A stretch of DNA of 32,797 nucleotides. Source: Candidatus Omnitrophota bacterium. Its GTDB lineage: Bacteria > Omnitrophota > Gorgyraeia > Zapsychrales > Zapsychraceae. Made by a program: the position numbers and the translations under genes. Below are positions 1,839 through 32,795 of this stretch, one piece after another. The stretch is taken from positions 1 to 32,797 of the forward strand of contig JACRHP010000028.1 of assembly GCA_016212005.1 (NCBI GenBank), given 5' to 3'. Each line of letters starts with the position of its first letter. The stretch's first letter is position 1. The notes below the pieces were generated by a model. The model worked only from the letters and a program-made list of their open reading frames with translations. It was not told the origin of the DNA and made no database searches.

Positions 1839-2060
1839 ATGGATACGGCTATTAAACTAAAATTGGCTAAACGCTTACGGCAATTAAGACAGAAATATGG
1901 TTACACTCAAGAAAAACTTGCTGAACTTTCTGGTGTGGACTATAAGCATATTCAATTACTGGAGAGCAGCAATCCCTCTACCGCAAAACTGGATACTATC
2001 GAAAAACTCGCCAAAGCCTTCAAAATAACCCCTTCAAAATTATTGGATTTTAAAAAGTAA
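1839..2060 (+). CDS. XRE-family helix-turn-helix transcriptional regulator
   Basis: LAKRLRQLRQKYGYTQEKLAELSGVDYKHIQLLESSNPSTAKLDTIEKLAKAFKITPSKLL is a canonical HTH_3 fold. Start at MDTAIK (1839). Confidence 0.85.
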   Translation: MDTAIKLKLAKRLRQLRQKYGYTQEKLAELSGVDYKHIQLLESSNPSTAKLDTIEKLAKAFKITPSKLLDFKK

Positions 2061-3080
2061 TTTATCCACCGCCTCATCTACATGCTTCTCCGTCAAATGG
2101 CTGTAGATCATCGTCGTGTCAATGTCCGCATGCCCCATCAATTTTTTGACCGTGGCCAGATCAACGCCTTTCATCACAAGGTGAGAGGCGAAGGTGTGGC
2201 GCAGGGAGTGGACGGTGTTCGCCTCGCCGAAATTCAGCTTCTTGGCCAGAGTTTTATATCTCTTCAGGAGGCGGTTTTTGTAAATCCTGTTTCCGTCCTC
2301 GTCCGGGAACACATACTGGCTGCCGTTGACTTTGGCCCGCTGATCCTTGAGGACCTTCAAAAGCCCGTCGTTAACGGGGATCTCCCGCTCGTTGGTCTTG
2401 GGCGTCCAGTCGTCTTTGACGGCGATCTTTATTTTCCGGCGGTCAAAGTCCACGTCCCGCCATTCGAGGTTTTCCAGCTCGCTTTTTCTCATGCCTGAAT
2501 TGAGAAACGCGAAGAATACCGGACGCAGCCAATCGTCGGACGCTTCCAAAAGCTGTTTGCATTGCTCTTCGGTGAGAAACTTGGGGGCAACGGTAGTGGG
2601 AACCCGGAGCCGGGACACGCCGTCCGTCGGGTTGGCTTTCTGATAACCCCACGTTATGGCCAGACGGAACATCATCCGGAGGACGATCATTTCAGCGTTG
2701 ACCGTCCGGTTTTCCGCGCCTTCCGACTTGCGAAACTGTTTAAAATCCTCAAAGGCTTTCGGCGCGAATTGCGATAATTTTTCCAAGCGGATCGGACTTT
2801 GGGAAAGAAACCTCAAAAAATTATCCAGGATGGCCCCGTATCTTTTCCGGGTGCTCGGGGCGAGGTTGGTTTGGCAATAGGCTTTAAATTCGGAGAGAAG
2901 CTTCTCAAAGGACTGATCGGCTTTGAGAAAGCCCAATTCGTTCTTGGCAAGTTTGACTTCGAGGTCTTTTAAAGCAAGCTCGGCGATCTTCCTGGAACGG
3001 CCAACACCCTTGCGGACACGTCTGCCATTGACCCGATAGTCGATAAAATAGGTGTTCCCTTTTTGACGGAGAGTAGCCAT
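2040..3080 (-). CDS. Tyrosine recombinase / phage-type integrase
   Basis: C-terminal catalytic pattern with LNSGMRKSELENLEWRDVD, HSLRHTFASHLVMKGVDLATVKKLMGHADIDTTMIYSHL, and an N-terminal SAM-like domain. Start at MATLRQKGNTYFIDYR (3080) preferred over 3188. Confidence 0.9.
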   Translation of the reverse strand: MATLRQKGNTYFIDYRVNGRRVRKGVGRSRKIAELALKDLEVKLAKNELGFLKADQSFEKLLSEFKAYCQTNLAPSTRKRYGAILDNFLRFLSQSPIRLEKLSQFAPKAFEDFKQFRKSEGAENRTVNAEMIVLRMMFRLAITWGYQKANPTDGVSRLRVPTTVAPKFLTEEQCKQLLEASDDWLRPVFFAFLNSGMRKSELENLEWRDVDFDRRKIKIAVKDDWTPKTNEREIPVNDGLLKVLKDQRAKVNGSQYVFPDEDGNRIYKNRLLKRYKTLAKKLNFGEANTVHSLRHTFASHLVMKGVDLATVKKLMGHADIDTTMIYSHLTEKHVDEAVDKLLFKIQ

Positions 3081-3081
3081 A

Positions 3082-3609
3082 TTACGGATGCTGGTGAAAA
3101 CCGATTTTTCCCTTCGGCTTTTCGGGCTCTGAAATAAGCCGTTTAATAATTTCAACGATTGCGATAATCTCTTTATCGTGCTTACCAACTTTTTCTTCCA
3201 GCTCCTTCATTCTTTGAGCAAGCTCTTTATGAGTGTTTATAAATTCTCTTAAGCGGATAAAGGTTTTAACAATATGGATGCTTATTTTCACGGCTCTTTC
3301 GCTTTTAAGGACACTGGCTAACATGGCGACGCCGTGTTCCGTAAACGCTCTTGGTCTTACCGTCGAATGCTTCAAGCTTTTGAACCGGTCACAATTTGTG
3401 ACCAGTTCCTTTGTTTCTTCTTCACTTAACCGGAACATAAAGTCCGGGAACCTCTCCTCATTTCGATTAACGGCCTGGTTCAAGACTTTTGTTCCTACAC
3501 CATAAAGTTCCGCCAGATCTCGATCAACCATCACTCTTTGACCACGAATTAAGAATATTCTGCTCTCGACCTCTCCTGATGCTATAAAAACGATTGATTT
3601 CTTATTCAT
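3082..3609 (-). CDS. ORF6N-domain protein
   Basis: IFLIRGQRVMVDRDLAELYGVGTKVLNQAVNRNEERFPDFMFRLSEEE...STVRPRAFTEHGVAMLASVLKSERAVKISIHIVKTFIRLRE is the ORF6N signature. RBS AGGAGACC precedes the ATG. Confidence 0.85.
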   Translation of the reverse strand: MNKKSIVFIASGEVESRIFLIRGQRVMVDRDLAELYGVGTKVLNQAVNRNEERFPDFMFRLSEEETKELVTNCDRFKSLKHSTVRPRAFTEHGVAMLASVLKSERAVKISIHIVKTFIRLREFINTHKELAQRMKELEEKVGKHDKEIIAIVEIIKRLISEPEKPKGKIGFHQHP

Positions 3610-15623: not shown

Positions 15624-15652
15624 TTACCTATCACCCATCAACTATCACCCTT
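15624..15652. repeat. Short single-arm heptad array, pilT-pyrE junction
   Basis: TTACCTATCACCCATCAACTATCACCCTT. Confidence 0.5.
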
Positions 15653-16733
15653 ATGAATCGGTATACCGCTTGAGCCCTTTGAGCTCCAGGTCAAACTCGT
15701 CCTTGCTGTCGGCGTAATTGCGCGCCTCCGCGGCGTCCACGAGGCCGTCTTTGACAAGCTTGACCAGCGATTTCTTGAACGACTGCATGCCGAAGAGCTC
15801 CCCCTCGTCGATGTACGTCTGGATCTCGCGGATCTGGCCGTCGCGGATCAGGCGCGCGACCGTGGGAGTCACCACCATCGTCTCGGTCGCCGGGACGCGG
15901 CCCTTGCCGTCGCGCCGCGGTAAAAGCCGGATCGAAAGCGTGCCTTTTAAAATGAGCGAAAGCTGCATGCGCACCTCATCGTGCAGGTGGGGCGGAAAAA
16001 AGTTCACCATCCGGATGATCGTCTGGACCGCGTTGATCGTGTGGAACGTCGTAATGACGAACGTCCCCAGCTCGGTGGCCGTGATGGCCGCCCGCATGGT
16101 CGGCTCGTCGCGGATGTTGCCGATAAAAATAATGTCCGGGCTCTGCTGGGTGACGTGCTTGAGGGCCATCGGGTACGACTGGACGTCGAGGCCCAGCTCG
16201 CGCTGGTTGATGATGCTTTTCTTGTCCTGGAACAGGAACTCGATGGGGTCCTCGATCGTGATGATATGTTTGGCGTACAGGACGTTGATGTATTCGATCA
16301 TGCTGGCGATGGCCGTCGATTTGCCGTTACCCGCCGGCCCGCAGACCAAAAACAACCCCTTGGACTCCTCGCAAAATTTCTTCAGGACATCGGCGGGAAG
16401 GTTGAGCTGGTCGAAATTCTCGACCTGCATGTGGACGTGCCGGGCGACGATGGCGGGGGTCCCGCGCTGCATGAAGATGTTGACCCGGAAACGCCCGATA
16501 TGCGGCTCTTCATGGATAAAATCGATATCGCAATTTTCCAAAAAATGTTTTTTGCGGGATTCGCTGACCAGCAGGAGGTTCGTGATGCCCTGCATGTCGC
16601 TTTTGGTCAGGGGTTCCGTCGCGATCGTCTCGACCTTGCCGTTGATACGCGCGCGCGGGATGGCGTGGGTCCTCAAATAAAGGTCCGAAGCCTCTTTTTC
16701 GCACATGAGCTGGAATAATTGCTGGATATTCAT
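15651..16733 (-). CDS. Type IV pilus PilT/PilU-like retraction ATPase
   Basis: Walker A LVCGPAGNGKSTAIASMIEYIN, ITIEDPIEFLFQDKKSIINQRELGLD, IIFIGNIRDEPTMRAAITATELGTFVITTFHT. Confidence 0.93.
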   Translation of the reverse strand: MNIQQLFQLMCEKEASDLYLRTHAIPRARINGKVETIATEPLTKSDMQGITNLLLVSESRKKHFLENCDIDFIHEEPHIGRFRVNIFMQRGTPAIVARHVHMQVENFDQLNLPADVLKKFCEESKGLFLVCGPAGNGKSTAIASMIEYINVLYAKHIITIEDPIEFLFQDKKSIINQRELGLDVQSYPMALKHVTQQSPDIIFIGNIRDEPTMRAAITATELGTFVITTFHTINAVQTIIRMVNFFPPHLHDEVRMQLSLILKGTLSIRLLPRRDGKGRVPATETMVVTPTVARLIRDGQIREIQTYIDEGELFGMQSFKKSLVKLVKDGLVDAAEARNYADSKDEFDLELKGLKRYTDS

Positions 16734-23684: not shown

Positions 23685-26600
23685 CTAGTTCAAACTGGAC
23701 ATTTCTAGCTCATCTTCTTTTCTCTGCGGCTCAAGGCCAAGCAGGGGTAAAACGCTCGGTAGCGGCGTGATATTGATAATGACCGGGGCGAAGCCGTCAA
23801 TGCCGGTGTCAATAAGCTCCTGCAATTCCGCGGGATCAAACTGGATATCCACTCCGGCGCCTTGACGGTCGAGGTCGATTGCGTTCATGTCGATCCCGCC
23901 GACGTCCTCGGTGTTCATATTTCGCGAAGGGTATCTCGATGTATTAGACGCTTCACTCTCTACAAGCGACGTTTCACGCTCGGCCACCGGTGAGCTGGAT
24001 ATAGCAAAGTCGTCCCCTTTTTCAGCTCGCAGATCAACGAATATCGTATCGGGAGTCGCGAGCGTGCCGCTTTCCTCTATTTCGATTCCTCTGCCCTTCA
24101 ATCCCAATATTTTAGTCACTTTTTTAAAAGGGTCTTCCTCCTCTTGAAAAACTTCCTCCAAATCTTGGGGAGAAAGATGATTTATTCCTTCAACAATTCT
24201 TTCGATAACATTAAATTCCGAATCAGAGCTGGTATCTAATTCATGGGAGAATTTAAGAACGTGTATCAGTTTTTTCTTGCTTTCTTTGACATGAACGTTC
24301 TGATAGTATTCTTCAAGACGCGAAAGAATATAAAGAAAGCGAAATACGGTTAATTTATGCGTCGGCCTTTCGGAAAATTTTCTAAGGTTCCAGATCCCAT
24401 TTTTTATATTGATCCGGGAAAGGAAATCTTCAAAATTCTTCAAATGCTTTTCCGAGACACCCCTGATTCGTTCCAACTCCGAGCTAATTTCAGAAAGATC
24501 GCCCGAAACCTCCCTGAGAACATTGGTCATGGCATTTTCCTGCATTAGCTTCCCAATAATATTGGATAAATTTCTCACCTTGGGAGTTACTATTTTCTTT
24601 TCATTGACATTCTCGGTATCGAATTTTGGAACCATTGTTCTTAACATAACTTCACCACCATCAATTTCAATAATTGAAGCAATAAACTCATTGATGGTCA
24701 ATTTTCCCCATTGAGTTTTAGCCATTTCGGTATAATGCGTGCTTATAAAACTCAACAAAATAACCATTTCTTCAAGCGTTACGCCGTCAAAAAGCTTTGA
24801 GGCCTGCTCAAGATTGATCGCATCGCGGCTCCGGCCAAATAATCCTAGAAATAACCGTATCTTACTCCAATTTTTTTCCAACAACCTGTATTTGGGCAAT
24901 TTTGTTAAATCATGCAGAAATACTAAACTTTCAATGTGATTATCGGTCGTGACACTCCTTCCCTTGGAAATCAACCAGGCGGCTGCCGTAATAGCGGCAA
25001 TTTTAATATACCGGTTCATATCCGCTAGCCGCTTGTTATCAACAATCAATTTAGAGCTGCCGGGGTCATATCCCATGTGCAGATTCCCATGGTCCTCTAG
25101 GTTTTTCATAATGGTTGCCGAATCGTTTTTGGTAAAATCGTGGATCCTTGGGATAGTATAATTTTTCATAATTTCATTGATCGGATCCGCGCTAAAAGGC
25201 GCTAGGTTTGACGGTGCTGTGAACTTAATGATATCAAAACGCTTGTTTTCATTCCCCAGACGATCACTTATGACACTTAATAAATACATCAATTTGACCA
25301 TATCCTCTGCTCGTAAGGATTGAAAAAAGAAAATGCCATAATCAAGGACTTTATATCGATCGGCATTGCCAAAATTTTCTACAATTCTCTCATAGTCCTT
25401 GGGGCGCTGGCTTTTGATTTTTCCAAGAACCTCCTTAACCTTCTGGAATTTAGGTCGGTCAAGCTCTCCCAGAGGGTCTGACGACCAGATCCGCATCCTG
25501 CGGCCGAATAGTCCCTCGCTAAATTCTCTTTCAAGATACTGATCATCAACAAGAATACCCATAAAATAATCAAAATGATCTTGATTCAAATTTAATCCGT
25601 TCCTGGTCCCGTAAACATCGGCCGTGTTAACGAGGCTCAACGCCTTTACCCATTTTGTTCTTTCTTTTGCGCCTTGTTTTGGGTCTCTAAATTTATTCTC
25701 AAAAAGTTTGCCGACAGTTCGTTCTCCAAAGCGAATGGTCCCCAGTTCGACATGACTAAGTGCCAGCCATTTGATAAAGTCCACCTCTTGCTCATTAAAA
25801 AGCAGGCCGCTTTTATCTTCCGTGTCCTGACGCACAAGCCCTAGTTGTTTCAAGATTTGAGCGATAAAAATCGCGCTTTTTTCTTCGTGCATTTCACCAG
25901 CCCCGCGGATTAATTCATATTCGCCGGTATCATGCAAGAATGCCGCCAAATAAATCAACCTGCGTTTCTTTATCCGCTCTGTACCCTCTTCCCCAAGCCA
26001 CTTATGAAATTCATTATGGTATGTATTAAAAACTTCCTGCGCAATCAATCTTCCTTCCTTATTTTTATTGATCGCATTATAAGCCTCGTGATCCCCTTTT
26101 TCGATCAGCGTAAGAAATTTTACCAATTCCATAGTATGATCAAAAATTGAAACGCCCGGACTCTTCATAAACCGTTTCTCATCTGCCAAATCCTTCATAA
26201 AAGGCATTAACGTAAACAGCCCTCCCGCCGGGATTTCTTCATTGTTTTTATCCTTTCCGAAACGAAATTTAGCTAATCCGGCATACACGTCATTAGAATC
26301 AAGGATATTGATGAATGAGCGTATCAGGGTTTCGTTGTCGCTCAGCCAAACCTCTGTTACGGGCGTCTTATTGATCCCTTTCCCTCCCTCAATTTTTGAC
26401 AGGCGGTCCTTGACTTGTTCAAAGGAAAAATTCGTGAACGAAGGGCTTCCCTCCCCGAAATAAAGCGTCCCGAAATTTCTGTGTAACGAAGTTAACGCCA
26501 TCACCTGCTCACGTTCTGAATCATTTAAACCTAATTTCACCAATAATTTTGGAATAATTTCCCAAGCATCTAATGACTCGTCCCCATGCAATATCCTTGC

Positions 26601-29600
26601 GTATTGCTGTAGGATAACGGCCAACCGCAGGATCTTTTTGGTCGAATCGTTTTTACGCGTACTGTCGTCTTTGGTCAAAGATCGGTACGTTGCGATGAAT
26701 CGTTTAATCGGCTCTTCCTTCAGCTTGTCTTTTTGGAGGCGTTTCTCGTTTAAATAATTAATAAAATCTTCTTCCTCAACTGTAGGGTTATATGCGACGG
26801 CAACGCTGTCCAAATAATTCAAAAATGTGATCGCCTCATCGACCTGGTCAAACCTTGTAGCAACGATCCCGCTTCTGTCTAAAGACTCTGGCAAGTATTT
26901 CAATTCGTCAATAAGGCTTATTTTCTTGATTTTATCCCACATTTCACTGGCCCTGGAGGAAGGTTCCTTCCATATTCTTCCAAAATCTTTGGCATCATCT
27001 TCTGCGATCGCGGCGACAAAAGCGTCAACTGTTTTGACCACTTTAGCGCGGAACCGTTCATTGTGCGGCTCGTAAAATAGTCCGTGGGAATATTGCCGGA
27101 TCGCCCCTCGATAATCGCCATTTTCGTAATAAAAATCCCCCAAAGCCATGAGCATCCGGGTAATCGCCACCCTTTCATCTTTGCGGATATATTGATCTTG
27201 ATACAAGTTTTCCAAATGAGTGTTGATGATCGCGATTTCTTCCACGGGCACCTGGACATCATTGACGATTTCTTTAAGCCGTTTTTCCTTATATTTCTTT
27301 ATTGTTGCCAGCATCGGATCAGCGATGCGATTCACGCTGCCGCTTTCCAGAAGCTTTATCAATTTATCTCGATTGCGGTTATAGTGAATAAACTCCAACT
27401 CCTTTAGAAGAATAAAAGCCTGCATGGTTTTTTCATCGACGTCATTTATATTTTGAATATATTTTAAAACATACCCAAGACCGAGATTGAGTAGTTGGGA
27501 TGCCAAGAGCAGCACGCTTCCCTCGTGATCACCGGTAGAACCGTTGCCAAGGGTAGATTCCTCGACAGTGAATATAAGACGGCTATCTTCCACTTGGCTT
27601 CTTGCCGAAACAGACCGCTTCCCCTCGTCAACAAATACATTTCTTTGCAGACGAATGATCAATTCCCGCCCGGATTGACTACCAAAGATTTTTTCTCCAA
27701 TTTTCGTTATCTTAAGATTCTCAATCGCATCTTTCAGGACTTTCGCCTTCTCTTTCCTTTGCTCCTCTGCCCCGGAGAGAGCTGCCCCCTGATACTGCGC
27801 TAAATCTTGCAAGGAAGTGAATTCTCCCAACACTAATTCTTCCTTTTTGCCATCGCCGTAAGGCCAAACACGCCAAGAAGTGACATGCTGGCCGTCATCT
27901 ATAACCGGCGAGCTGGATGGGATGATTTCAATATATTCGTAAATTGCAACATCATCCCAATTCCCTTCCCACCCCTTAGAGTATTTATCTGTGTCAACTA
28001 ATAAACGAATTTTAGGTATCCACGATTCAGGTGGCGCCCCATCAATGCCTCCAACATAATCAGCCATATTACCAATAGTTTCATAATCAACTCCTTCCTC
28101 AAAGGATCTATGGTATGATCTGTTAACAACATTAAATTTATCACTTCCAATTTGCACAACTTGCTTTACATGTTCATTCCTTATCAGATGATGATACTGT
28201 GGATCCAATTTTCCTTTAATCATCGCCTCTGCCTCTTGAGGCGTAATCGGCGAGCTGGAGCGATAATCAAAAACCGCTTCGGCAAAAGCTTTGATGTGGG
28301 GAGAAAGGCCTCGATATAAGACCTCACGGTCGTCAACGCCCATATTCCGCGCGTTTGTCTGCATGATGGCAACGAGCTTCTCTTGCTGCTCAACCGGCAA
28401 GCTGTCAAAAAGCGTTTTGGAATCTATCCAATTTTGTTTCGGGATGGATTCAAGCCCCCCTTCAAATTCCCAATCACGTCTTTGCGTAGCGGGGTCTATC
28501 TTCTGCGCGTTGGCGATGATGCGAAACATCTCCGCCACGATTTCGGTGGGGGTATTTTCTTGAGGATGGTGATCCGCCGCGAAGCTTACTCCCTGGATCT
28601 TTCCGCGGGCGATTTGCTCGGCAAAGACACTGTTGAATTGGCCTTTGGTGCGCAATTGCTGTAGTGTTTTGGGGATATAAAGAATCTTGAATGTTTTTAC
28701 TTCTCCCAGAAGGCCTTTGTTTTTAAGTAACGTCTCCGTCTTCGTGAAGTTTTCCACCGTGTAGCGGGCTTCTTTTTCCAAGAGCACGATTTTATCGTCT
28801 TGGAGTTTGCCAACCAACCCCGCCCACCGTGGGTTGCGTTGTGCCATCTGGATCATGATCGAACGGATCATCTCCGCCTCGCTGGCCATTGCGACGGAAA
28901 AACCGTTGGCATCCGCTGTCCTTTTGATATCTTCGATGAGCCTTCCTCTCCCGCCGGAAATCGCGATGTACCGCCCAATGCCTTTGCTGAACAGATCGAG
29001 GACTTTTTCATAGACCGCCAGCTCATCGTTGCCCGGGACCATCAGGACATCGATCCCCGCCTGCGCGAGCTGGTCCTCCGGCACGTCCCTGCGCGCCAAC
29101 AGCGAGACCAAAGAATCCACGACCGGTGAGCTGGATTTGGGCGTGTCCGAGGGGCCTGCCTCAGGCGAAGTCGAAGGGCTAGATTGATTGATAATTTCGA
29201 TTTTCGGAGGCTCGTAGTCGTCTCCTTTTATTTCATCCCAGTCCTCTTCACTTGTAGTGGTTCCATAAAAGCCAAGCCCACCTGCTTTATAATGATATGT
29301 TATGTTTCCCTTTTCCTTATGATACACAACATCAAATTTAACCTCTTCTTTAGGTTTATCTTTAGCAATTTCAGCAACCTGTTGCTTATGCGCATCCGTT
29401 ATTAAATTAGCAAACTCTGGATGTCCTGGATATTTCTGCGCTAATTTTTTCTTGATCATCGCTTCTGCTCCGTTGTGAGTCATATTGCCACGAACGATTT
29501 CGATTTTTTCAGGGACATCAACGACCCATTCTTCCCCATCATAAATAGGACCATTAGTGGAATATAGAGTTGGACCCCAGCTTGACGGAGAATTGGATCC

Positions 29601-31163
29601 TTGAGCCCCATCCCCCCAATATCCCCCAACTGCAGGATCATACCCTGGCACTTCTTTTGGTTTCAACTCACCGTTCTCTTTTTGATATAAAATTTCAAAA
29701 TCATATCCCTCGCCTTGGAACTTTCTTGCATCTGGTAAAAATTCAACTGTCTTATTTTCAATCCTATAGTGTTTTCCCTCTGGGATACGTTCACGCAGGC
29801 GTGTAGCTAATTTAACAATAGCACGGGCATCTGGCGTATCGAGTTTTGTAAGTATGTTAAAGCTTTTTTTACGCTTCACCAAAATTTCATTCGCATCAAA
29901 CAAAATCCTAACATGCCGCCGCGTTCTCCACTCCGCCAATATCGGTGAAGCGGCTGCGTCTTGCTTTTGCGGGGTAATGCCAAGTGCCAATTTAAAGTTC
30001 CTACCAACCCGGCCGGATTCGACGACGCTTGGATTAGTAACTCGATTGAGTGTGATTGTTTTAAAGTTCATCAGTCGATCGATGCCGCCCGAGAAATACT
30101 TGCGCGGAATGGGTTGGGTGCTTAGCTGGTCGTAGTCTTCTTTGATGTAGTTAAAGACGCCTTTTTTGTAGGCTTCCATATATTGGGCGTAGATCTGGTC
30201 TTTGAGGGTGGCGTCGTCGAGGTTGACGCCGGCGATCTTCTTTTGGTCGATATAGATCTTCGAAAGCAGGCTGTTTTTGATGGTTTCTTTGTACCATTTG
30301 GCGAGGATGAGCGAATGGTAGATCTGGCGCAGGGGCGCGAAGTTTTGGCCTTCGTTGACTTCTTTTTCGATGGCGGGAAGAATGATTTCCTTAATAATTT
30401 CACTGGGGACTGAAGACTGAAGACTAACGACTGAAGACTTTTCCCCGTTAGACTGAAGGTCTTTTGTCTTTAGTCTTTGGTCTTTAGTCTCATATTGCAT
30501 CGCTTCATAATCGCTATCCAACATCACCCGCAGTTTGGCATCCACAATATAAACCGTCTGCCCGTGCTCGTAGACGGTCGCGGTTTCGGGCAGGATCCAG
30601 ACCTTGTTAAAGGTGTTGACCGGAATTTCGGTCGTGCCGTACTTCTCTTTGGCTTGTCTGTAAACCTTGTCCCAGAACTCCTTGCCGAGCTCTTTCTCCG
30701 GGTACATCAGCGAGGCGGTCAATTGTTTGAGGATATAATCCTGCGCGAGCATGTCGCGGCCGAGTTCGGTCTTGCCCAATTCGTCGGGGATAATGCGGTC
30801 TTTTTCGTACGGTGAAAGGTTGACCCAGAGGTCGTCTTTGGGGATGGTCATGGAGGCCAGAAAATATTTGACCAGTCGCTGTGATTCGGTCTTGATTTGG
30901 TTTTCTCTGAAATTGGTATTGCCGCTGTCGATGATGAAGTCGAATTGCAGAGGATTCTCGGGGTGGATGGTCATGCCCTTCAAGAGAACCGGCACGAATG
31001 TTTGGCTGGGGCCGACCATCGCTCCCGGCACCGGAAGATTCAGCGACGCGATCGATTGGGCGTACGCCGGCGGTAGAACGGAAGTAAAGACAAACGCAAA
31101 GATGATCAAGGCAGATACCGAACGACGGGCAAAACGGGTACGGCGAGATGTCATCATTTTCAT
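23685..31163 (-). CDS. Giant exported multidomain protein (2492 aa): N-terminal scaffold, repeated small module, DUF218/YdcF-like segment, TPR-like and HD-like segments
   Basis: Signal peptide RRSVSALIIFAFVFTSVLPPAYAQS. DVLMVPGNDELAVYEKVLDLFSKGIGRYIAISGGRGR. ALGDFYYENGDYRGAIRQYSHGLFYEP. FDHTMELV...LAAFLHDTGEYE. A single uninterrupted ORF. Confidence 0.85.
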   Translation of the reverse strand: MKMMTSRRTRFARRSVSALIIFAFVFTSVLPPAYAQSIASLNLPVPGAMVGPSQTFVPVLLKGMTIHPENPLQFDFIIDSGNTNFRENQIKTESQRLVKYFLASMTIPKDDLWVNLSPYEKDRIIPDELGKTELGRDMLAQDYILKQLTASLMYPEKELGKEFWDKVYRQAKEKYGTTEIPVNTFNKVWILPETATVYEHGQTVYIVDAKLRVMLDSDYEAMQYETKDQRLKTKDLQSNGEKSSVVSLQSSVPSEIIKEIILPAIEKEVNEGQNFAPLRQIYHSLILAKWYKETIKNSLLSKIYIDQKKIAGVNLDDATLKDQIYAQYMEAYKKGVFNYIKEDYDQLSTQPIPRKYFSGGIDRLMNFKTITLNRVTNPSVVESGRVGRNFKLALGITPQKQDAAASPILAEWRTRRHVRILFDANEILVKRKKSFNILTKLDTPDARAIVKLATRLRERIPEGKHYRIENKTVEFLPDARKFQGEGYDFEILYQKENGELKPKEVPGYDPAVGGYWGDGAQGSNSPSSWGPTLYSTNGPIYDGEEWVVDVPEKIEIVRGNMTHNGAEAMIKKKLAQKYPGHPEFANLITDAHKQQVAEIAKDKPKEEVKFDVVYHKEKGNITYHYKAGGLGFYGTTTSEEDWDEIKGDDYEPPKIEIINQSSPSTSPEAGPSDTPKSSSPVVDSLVSLLARRDVPEDQLAQAGIDVLMVPGNDELAVYEKVLDLFSKGIGRYIAISGGRGRLIEDIKRTADANGFSVAMASEAEMIRSIMIQMAQRNPRWAGLVGKLQDDKIVLLEKEARYTVENFTKTETLLKNKGLLGEVKTFKILYIPKTLQQLRTKGQFNSVFAEQIARGKIQGVSFAADHHPQENTPTEIVAEMFRIIANAQKIDPATQRRDWEFEGGLESIPKQNWIDSKTLFDSLPVEQQEKLVAIMQTNARNMGVDDREVLYRGLSPHIKAFAEAVFDYRSSSPITPQEAEAMIKGKLDPQYHHLIRNEHVKQVVQIGSDKFNVVNRSYHRSFEEGVDYETIGNMADYVGGIDGAPPESWIPKIRLLVDTDKYSKGWEGNWDDVAIYEYIEIIPSSSPVIDDGQHVTSWRVWPYGDGKKEELVLGEFTSLQDLAQYQGAALSGAEEQRKEKAKVLKDAIENLKITKIGEKIFGSQSGRELIIRLQRNVFVDEGKRSVSARSQVEDSRLIFTVEESTLGNGSTGDHEGSVLLLASQLLNLGLGYVLKYIQNINDVDEKTMQAFILLKELEFIHYNRNRDKLIKLLESGSVNRIADPMLATIKKYKEKRLKEIVNDVQVPVEEIAIINTHLENLYQDQYIRKDERVAITRMLMALGDFYYENGDYRGAIRQYSHGLFYEPHNERFRAKVVKTVDAFVAAIAEDDAKDFGRIWKEPSSRASEMWDKIKKISLIDELKYLPESLDRSGIVATRFDQVDEAITFLNYLDSVAVAYNPTVEEEDFINYLNEKRLQKDKLKEEPIKRFIATYRSLTKDDSTRKNDSTKKILRLAVILQQYARILHGDESLDAWEIIPKLLVKLGLNDSEREQVMALTSLHRNFGTLYFGEGSPSFTNFSFEQVKDRLSKIEGGKGINKTPVTEVWLSDNETLIRSFINILDSNDVYAGLAKFRFGKDKNNEEIPAGGLFTLMPFMKDLADEKRFMKSPGVSIFDHTMELVKFLTLIEKGDHEAYNAINKNKEGRLIAQEVFNTYHNEFHKWLGEEGTERIKKRRLIYLAAFLHDTGEYELIRGAGEMHEEKSAIFIAQILKQLGLVRQDTEDKSGLLFNEQEVDFIKWLALSHVELGTIRFGERTVGKLFENKFRDPKQGAKERTKWVKALSLVNTADVYGTRNGLNLNQDHFDYFMGILVDDQYLEREFSEGLFGRRMRIWSSDPLGELDRPKFQKVKEVLGKIKSQRPKDYERIVENFGNADRYKVLDYGIFFFQSLRAEDMVKLMYLLSVISDRLGNENKRFDIIKFTAPSNLAPFSADPINEIMKNYTIPRIHDFTKNDSATIMKNLEDHGNLHMGYDPGSSKLIVDNKRLADMNRYIKIAAITAAAWLISKGRSVTTDNHIESLVFLHDLTKLPKYRLLEKNWSKIRLFLGLFGRSRDAINLEQASKLFDGVTLEEMVILLSFISTHYTEMAKTQWGKLTINEFIASIIEIDGGEVMLRTMVPKFDTENVNEKKIVTPKVRNLSNIIGKLMQENAMTNVLREVSGDLSEISSELERIRGVSEKHLKNFEDFLSRINIKNGIWNLRKFSERPTHKLTVFRFLYILSRLEEYYQNVHVKESKKKLIHVLKFSHELDTSSDSEFNVIERIVEGINHLSPQDLEEVFQEEEDPFKKVTKILGLKGRGIEIEESGTLATPDTIFVDLRAEKGDDFAISSSPVAERETSLVESEASNTSRYPSRNMNTEDVGGIDMNAIDLDRQGAGVDIQFDPAELQELIDTGIDGFAPVIINITPLPSVLPLLGLEPQRKEDELEMSSLN
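25780..26160 (-). other. HD-domain-like segment of the giant protein
   Basis: FDHTMELVKFLTLIEKG...RRLIYLAAFLHDTGEYELIRGAGEMHEEKSAIFIAQILKQLGL. Confidence 0.6.
28265..29120 (-). other. DUF218 (YdcF/SanA-like) domain segment of the giant protein
   Basis: QAGIDVLMVPGNDELAVYEKVLDLFSKGIGRYIAISGGRGRLIEDIKR...SEAEMIRSIMIQ...KIVLLEKEARYTVENF. Confidence 0.6.
30406..30491. repeat. Two-armed heptad array translated in frame inside the giant ORF
   Basis: GACTGAAGACTGAAGACTAACGACTGAAGAC opposed to GTCTTTTGTCTTTAGTCTTTGGTCTTTAGTCTC. Encodes ETKDQRLKTKDLQSNGEKSSVVSLQSSV. Confidence 0.85.
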
Positions 31164-31232: not shown

Positions 31233-32795
31233 CTATTTTTCGGCAAAAGGCAAATTTAGCGCGGTTTGCCCGGCCTTCCGGCGCCAAAGATACAGGACCG
31301 CGCAAAGGGCCGCGTAATAAAGAACAATGACCGGGACCGGCACCCCCGGCACCCGGAAATACGCCCCGGGGATCTGGACGCACCAAAAGACAAATTTGAC
31401 CATCAACGCCAGCAGGACCCGGATGCAATCGGCAAATAGAAACGTCACGCCCGGCAGCACCAGGCCGGTCAATAAAACCCCCAAACCCAGGACAACGATC
31501 AGGGAAGACAACGGAATGACAACCAGGTTGGCAAGAATAGCGACCGGCGTGACAAACTCAAAATAATAGGCGATCATCACCGCCACCCCTCCATAGGCGC
31601 AAAAGGAAAGGATGAACGATTGGCCGATGTATTTCAAAACGGACATCACGGCACCGATCGTCTTGCCGCGCCCGGCGGCTTTAGCATCCAGCATGGATAA
31701 CACGCTTGCACATTTCGGATAAAAGACAATGATCGCCAGCACGCTCACAAAGGACAATTGAAACCCGACGTCAAAAAGGTTCACCGGATTCACGAAAAGA
31801 ATCAAGAGCGCCGCGCAGGAGAGCGTGTTGAGGGATTCCGGCTCACGTTCCAGGATAAACCCGGCCAGAAAGACCGTAGCCATGATGGCGGCGCGCACCA
31901 CCGGCGGCTGGGCGCCGGTCAAGACCGCGTAGGCCGCCAGGATCAGGATCGTCAGGATATAATGCCACCGACGGCCCAGCGGGAATATTTTGAGGAACAA
32001 AAATATCACGTACGCGACGATCCCCACGTTAAAACCCGATATGGCCAGGATGTGCACGACCCCGGCCCTTTGGAAGAGGTCATTAATATGTCGGGGGATA
32101 TTGTACCGGTCCCCCAGTAGAAACCCTTCCATGATCCCTTTCTCTGCTCCGATAAAATGATCCGCCAGAATGGCGTTGAGCCGGTGCTTGAACCGGATCA
32201 CGTGCCGGTGGAGCGGATCGCCGCGGTCCTTCCCCAAGACTTCCACCCGTCCCTGTTTCTTGACGCTCAAAATATATTTTATCCCTTTACGGTCAAGGTA
32301 GTCGCGGTAAGAAAATTTGCTGTCCGCGGAGAAGTTAAATGGTTTGTGCAGCTTCCCCTCAAGGACCAGACCATCGCCGTACTGGACGTCCTGCGCCCGG
32401 AAAAGGTTGACGAGCACCTCGCCCCGGCTTTCCTGCCAGCCTCTTTTTCCCTTGAGCCGCTTGACCTCAAGCCGAAACGTGGTTTTGCGTGCGTTCCCGC
32501 GCCGGCGCAGTTCCACGTCGGAGACGACCACACCTTCCACCAGGACGGGGGCACCGTAATAAAACCCGGCGACGCGGGAAATATGTCCGTCCGGCAAAAT
32601 TTTATGCGTCCGGAAATGGATGCCGCCCAGCAGGACAAAGGCAAAAAAAATCAAAACAAGAAAGCCGCGCGGTTTGTGAAACAGCAAACAACACAAAACA
32701 ACGCACAGGGCCGCCGCTGCGTACGCGGCAAGAACCGGGACCGGGACGTACGCGCCCAGCAAAATGCCGCCGCCAAAACACAGCGTAATCCACAA
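31233..32795 (-). CDS. ComEC/Rec2-family competence membrane protein without a C-terminal metallo-beta-lactamase domain; 5' end at the window edge
   Basis: DUF4131-like N-terminus, GFLLGDRYNIPRHINDLFQRAGVVHILAISGFNVGIVAYVIFLFL, LTGAQPPVVRAAIMATVFLAGFILERE. Stops after the membrane domain. Confidence 0.88.
   Translation of the reverse strand: MWITLCFGGGILLGAYVPVPVLAAYAAAALCVVLCCLLFHKPRGFLVLIFFAFVLLGGIHFRTHKILPDGHISRVAGFYYGAPVLVEGVVVSDVELRRRGNARKTTFRLEVKRLKGKRGWQESRGEVLVNLFRAQDVQYGDGLVLEGKLHKPFNFSADSKFSYRDYLDRKGIKYILSVKKQGRVEVLGKDRGDPLHRHVIRFKHRLNAILADHFIGAEKGIMEGFLLGDRYNIPRHINDLFQRAGVVHILAISGFNVGIVAYVIFLFLKIFPLGRRWHYILTILILAAYAVLTGAQPPVVRAAIMATVFLAGFILEREPESLNTLSCAALLILFVNPVNLFDVGFQLSFVSVLAIIVFYPKCASVLSMLDAKAAGRGKTIGAVMSVLKYIGQSFILSFCAYGGVAVMIAYYFEFVTPVAILANLVVIPLSSLIVVLGLGVLLTGLVLPGVTFLFADCIRVLLALMVKFVFWCVQIPGAYFRVPGVPVPVIVLYYAALCAVLYLWRRKAGQTALNLPFAEK

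Follow-up and report, generated by a model that had tools for sequence, protein, structure and literature searches.

A lineage-worded peptide seam between the modules of giant Omnitrophota proteins as a candidate processing site

What does it mean when one bacterial gene writes the same short peptide at several distant places, and at four of them spells it with the same codons in the same order? The window analyzed here, 32,797 nucleotides at its full length (contig JACRHP010000028.1 of a Candidatus Omnitrophota bacterium), contains such a gene. The peptide is SSSP(V/I), and the first-pass annotation took it for a DNA seam copied from one module boundary to the next. We find that the seam is the signature of a whole family of giant proteins, that it lies between domains and brackets whole enzymes, and that it is reworded from lineage to lineage. 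On balance we lean, with some reserve, towards the seam being a site, specific to each lineage, at which exported bacterial polyproteins are processed, with both the cleavage and the protease presumed from how the sequences are arranged.

The seam in the window gene

The gene occupies positions 23685-31163 of the minus strand as a single open reading frame of 2,492 amino acids (7.5 kb), laid out as an N-module, a series of variable modules, and a C-module. The N-module (residues 1-360; 30084-31163) has a signal-peptide-like start (...LPPAYAQ) followed by a conserved domain of about 330 amino acids that ends in YFSGG. A Pfam search with the N-module gave no match, and its AlphaFold2 model, which is weak (pLDDT 61), matched no PDB fold at E ≤ 0.001; on the latter result we dropped the idea that it is a known protease. 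The C-module (23688-23903; VGGIDMN...PVIINITPLPSVLPLLGL) is conserved across the giant-protein family.

The four SSSP(V/I) sites are present where they had been reported, all in frame within this reading frame. They are SSSPV at residue 677 (TCCAGCTCACCG GTC; 29121-29135), SSSPI at residue 969 (TCCAGCTCGCCG ATT; 28245-28259), SSSPV at residue 1083 (TCCAGCTCGCCG GTT; 27903-27917), and SSSPV at residue 2389 (TCCAGCTCACCG GTG; 23985-23999), and each uses the ordered codons TCC AGC TC(A/G) CCG, that is, TCCAGCTC(A/G)CCG. The inventory of four was incomplete: a fifth seam, AASPI (GCC GCT TCA CCG ATT; residue 404, 29940-29954), follows shortly after the N-module, which ends at about residue 360, and a looser, uncertain seam-like QSSPS is found at 29172-29186. 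That the sites fall at module boundaries, which had been claimed for three of them, is true of all the seams in the window. The one at residue 404 comes after the N-module, the one at 2389 stands 32 residues ahead of the C-module (residue 2421), and those at 677 and 969 bracket a module of about 290 amino acids (28260-29120), which has homologues in three other genomes and no match in searches of PDB, Pfam, and NCBIfam. Between the next two SSSP seams lies a module of about 110 amino acids (27918-28244), with weak similarity to part of the first module (residues 558-616; 39% over 59 amino acids, E = 9e-7). A long module region (24000-27902) follows, in which a TPR-like stretch and, at residues 1731-1804, an HD domain below threshold were seen.

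Chance is excluded as the origin of the seams. In dinucleotide shuffles of the window, allowing at most one mismatch, the mean number of matches was 0.29 and four was never reached; and the probability of such agreement among the four SSSP sites, computed from the gene's own codon-use counts, is about 1e-8. Pattern searches of the genome assembly (1.81 Mb, 86% complete) found seven copies of TCCAGCTCRCCG, six of them in frame in the window gene or in a paralogue that shares its N- or C-module: four in the window gene, one in the paralogue on contig C44, and one in that on C4 (as SSSPL). The seventh, on C37, is out of frame, opposite an unrelated reading frame.

Elsewhere in the window, a ComEC-like competence gene adjoins the giant gene (31233-32795), and the neighborhood holds a type II/IV secretion ATPase (15651-16733) and a tyrosine integrase (2040-3188); a weak PEP-CTERM-like C-terminus is seen at 618-1754. 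DNA uptake by way of the ComEC-like gene could feed the acquisition of modules.

A family of giant modular proteins

Of the taxonomic family's 32 genomes, 31 have the N-module; it is found throughout the order and occurs more weakly elsewhere in the class. A genome may have up to 45 matches to it, and reading frames of the family exceed 6,000 amino acids. The gene plan recurs: a conserved exported-type N-module, variable modules, and a C-module with a GGID...PVIINITPLP ending. The named relatives of the N-module are almost all from Candidatus Omnitrophota, and among the catalogues searched the family is restricted to that phylum bar two odd labels, one record called Planctomycetales and one called merely 'bacterium'. 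The Planctomycetales record (L170, SBBM01000020) carries an Omnitrophota N-module and seams of the same serine type as the window gene, and its label is probably wrong.

The longest relatives reach 26 kb (8,779 amino acids), compared with 7.5 kb for the window gene. As an example, a 48 kb contig (G026:C83) has two reading frames of 8,779 and 7,286 amino acids, with 21 and 18 seams. The same contig shows longer in-frame repeats within its giants (SHSRGVILITPRECDFRSHPGSV; APQRKTKGYETGSPAE; loci L053-L055) that resemble inserted elements. Some giants have few or no recognized seams (L128, and several genomes of families f5-f7). A sister giant from the same genus (L056) has an ankyrin-repeat module at about residues 440-740 and a shikimate-dehydrogenase-like module at 811-1074.

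Seams lie between modules and bracket whole enzymes

Across 14 proteins with 43 Pfam matches, none of 149 seams falls inside a match, where 17.6 would be expected, and none of 5000 shifts gave so few. Blocks of homology between different giants tell the same story. Their ends lie within 10 amino acids of a seam in 24.8% of cases, against 4.1% in the null (maximum 11.0% of 500), their starts in 12.8% against 4.2%, and 20 seams lie within blocks against 70 in the null.

Some of the bracketed units are enzymes. Several independently folding proteins can share one uninterrupted reading frame: FBPase, TIM, and a full-length GAPDH in one giant (L059), galactokinase (GalK) in another (L079), PGM and FBPase in a third (L049). 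In L059 the order is FBPase, ASSPV, TIM, ASSPV, GAPDH, where the GAPDH-I match covers the full model (1-330), begins about 9 amino acids past the seam, and keeps ASCTTN and GHSE/EPVWAIG. The galactokinase is bracketed by seams of the DNAM type, and in genome G025 a PGK reaches its natural C-terminus two residues ahead of DAAM. Normal stand-alone PGK and TIM also occur in most of the sampled genomes, although the assembly of the window shows neither. In a tree the PGKs of giants are placed separately, on long branches, and the enzyme modules are second, diverged copies of metabolic enzymes. Catalytic signatures are retained in some modules (such as the GAPDH ASCTTN) and absent in others. Because many modules are strongly diverged and some lack such signatures, enzymes released from the chain need not be active. 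Two modules may be circular permutations: a TIM match (L067, residues 2402-2771) begins at model position 46-52 and is followed by a PFVAGNNKTKK stretch whose likeness to the TIM N-terminus is not significant, and in L071 (residues 1423-1855) the C-domain of glutamate dehydrogenase stands ahead of the N-domain.

Signal- or membrane-like stretches occur directly after 4.5% of seams, versus 0.7% before. Tat- or lipoprotein-like signals stand right after in-chain seams in several giants (G026C83, L050, L081, L094, L148), for example MGRRTFLRNLVVGLGLVCSAGGC. Together with the near-natural enzyme termini at seams, the stretches after seams are supporting hints that the chain may be processed. Polarity around seams is only slightly above average. 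A structure model of the TIM unit with both its seams (pLDDT 56) was too poor to fix the position of the seams, although they lie in low-confidence tails.

Seam wording and module reshuffling

In a motif search without prior choice, every four-residue pattern was enumerated, genome by genome, in reading frames with the N-module. For the own genus and its sister genera, the strongest pattern outside the N- and C-modules was SSPV/ASSP, and for many others it was D.AM[LT]; some genomes are dominated by repeats or offer too few data. We call the two wordings dialects: [SA][SA]SP[VIL] (the S dialect) in the own and sister genera, and D-x-A-M-[LTV] in most others. A further dialect may be used in family f6, in which [ASV]SSx[VIL] occurs 15 times against 3 in shuffles. 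The seam dialect tracks the species tree. In a tree of stand-alone PGKs the S dialect forms one supported clade (98/97) plus genome G009, and the tree needs 2 dialect changes, against 6.2 in shuffles. Paralogues in the own genome have other codons or residues at like sites (GCC GCC TCG CCG, TCC TCC TCG CCG), and in D-x-A-M the second position is free, the motif being set by its amino acids.

Modules are reshuffled relative to relatives, as had been predicted. The 677-969 module is found in four genomes at differing positions; it is the second module in this gene and, in G005, the final one ahead of the C-module. Its homologue in G005 (44% identity) is ended by SSSPV, that in G015 (24%) has SSSPI before and SSSPV after it, and that in G010 (38%) ends at DKAM, a seam of the other dialect. 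Three more pairs of homologous modules cross the dialects, one genome having S seams and the other seams of the D-x-A-M type. Since module boundaries are kept while the seam is reworded, the constraint acts mainly on the protein. Inherited position with changed wording is the hallmark of a peptide that a factor shared by the lineage reads.

Is the seam copied DNA, a linker, or a site that is read?

The codon identity is not explained by serine codon bias, the seam codons being, in several genomes, far from the gene's own usage. In G026 the third serine is TCG in 33 of 44 seams (7.4 expected); in G012, GCG is used in 18 of 20 cases (4.9 expected) and CTG in 16 of 18 (2.6 expected). General selection for accurate codons was dropped as an explanation, as seam codons are unlike those at conserved sites of the N-module. 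Seam DNA is slightly more alike within genes than between them (G012, p=0.0005; G026, p=0.028; G027, p=0.055; own genome, p=0.10). This excess, the codon match beyond bias, the departure from N-module codons, and the reshuffling of modules are what one would expect of a seam defined at the DNA level, 12-15 nt copied between genes or serving as short homology for module exchange, with the peptide as a by-product. But no DNA conservation is seen outside the five seam codons, where the information is about zero, which also led us to drop an extended repeat or palindrome in the DNA; AT-rich genomes (G024, JADFYF) show no rise in GC3 over the seam and lack the codon effect; and it is amino acids that define the motif. 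A copied 12-mer is insufficient alone, because the boundary position persists while the amino acids are replaced lineage-wide, a pattern for which protein-level function does account. So of the original proposal the codon identity and the reshuffling stand, and the copied DNA seam as the whole story does not; the seam is not a private DNA scar, and we think it unlikely that DNA alone defines it. As the seam codons are non-random, DNA copying is a plausible second layer, and we read the codon pattern as seam copying during module gain on top of selection on the protein. The pattern might also come from selection at the level of mRNA.

Could the seam be a passive linker, a short joint of small residues and proline favored between domains, with no reader? 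Seams do always lie between domains, and the S dialect is made of small residues, but the wording is near-fixed per lineage and changes in a coordinated manner across dozens of genes, whereas normal linkers are variable in sequence, and D-x-A-M is untypical of them. A mere joint seems slightly less probable still than a DNA-defined seam. The dialects and the boundary position would be explained equally well by a motif that is bound or modified (for export, assembly, or glycosylation) while the chain stays uncut. That is improbable in our view: modification of a serine cluster is impossible for D-x-A-M, and cutting fits better with near-complete enzymes lying, near their natural termini, between seams. 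Finally, a translational role for the seam codons, whether to slow the ribosome between modules, to restart it, or to make it skip, is very improbable, and internal starts were dropped, for despite the codon constraint, the ATG in D-x-A-M, and the GTG often found as the fifth codon of SSSPV, no Shine-Dalgarno-like conservation was found upstream, position 5 can be CTC, ATA, or GCC, which are not starts, and AT-rich relatives lack the constraint.

Under the favored reading of a processed polyprotein, the giant chain would leave the cell by means of the secretion signal in its N-module, carrying first a variable run of modules that each fold on their own and are often metabolic-enzyme copies that have diverged, and then the conserved C-module. 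SSSP(V/I) would be the local wording of a short inter-module peptide, read at the protein level, at which a lineage-wide protease would cut, releasing many proteins from a single exported chain. Modules would be gained and swapped at seams, and the seam DNA copied during such swaps would explain the codon identity; codon constraint inside the motif is not expected for a protease site alone. We know of no protease family that recognizes both D-x-A-M and S-S-S-P. Also speaking against this reading are the giants with few or no recognized seams, the strong divergence of many enzyme modules, and the barely raised polarity around seams. A bolder version we put forward only tentatively, as rather doubtful: a whole bacterial order exports polyproteins built from parallel, diverged versions of the enzymes of central metabolism, one protease cutting a lineage-specific password, and modules being spliced at these passwords so that a memory is kept in the DNA.

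Comparison with known systems

Giant reading frames of more than 20 kb have been described in Omnitrophota, with few annotated domains and poor conservation, as possible adhesins (Seymour et al. 2023, PMC10066038), and poorly annotated giants of the phylum may have surface, adhesive, or predatory roles (PMC12057145; also PMC11573180). The proteins described here are like those of PMC10066038 in being very long, poorly annotated, and apparently exported chains of the same phylum; the sections of that article available to us do not report the shared N-module, the seam motif, its dialects, or the enzyme modules. Nor were the seam, the dialects, the enzyme modules, or an Omnitrophota polyprotein architecture found in the literature searched, a scope that leaves out bioRxiv preprints. 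The seam provides a key for splitting otherwise unannotatable giant reading frames into units and suggests what those frames are. It makes the cutting of Omnitrophota giant proteins, and by what, a testable question, for which the switch between SSSP and D-x-A-M is a natural comparison in the search for the motif's reader.

Rickettsia palindromic elements and other in-frame inserted repeats also place short repeated DNA in frame within coding regions. The seam shares this with them, but it is only 12-15 nt, is confined to one gene family, always lies between domains, and is reworded between lineages. Closer in plan are the polyproteins of viruses and of euglenid plastids, where one reading frame gives several folded products separated by a short recurring junction motif, behind a leader for export or targeting. 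The giants have the same elements: one reading frame, folded units, a junction motif, and a leader. They differ in being bacterial, where polyproteins are rare, in having dozens of paralogues per genome, in their metabolic-enzyme modules, and in using at least two lineage dialects. We know of no bacterial polyprotein in which a secretion leader precedes joined copies of glycolytic and other metabolic enzymes and which has tens of paralogues in a genome.
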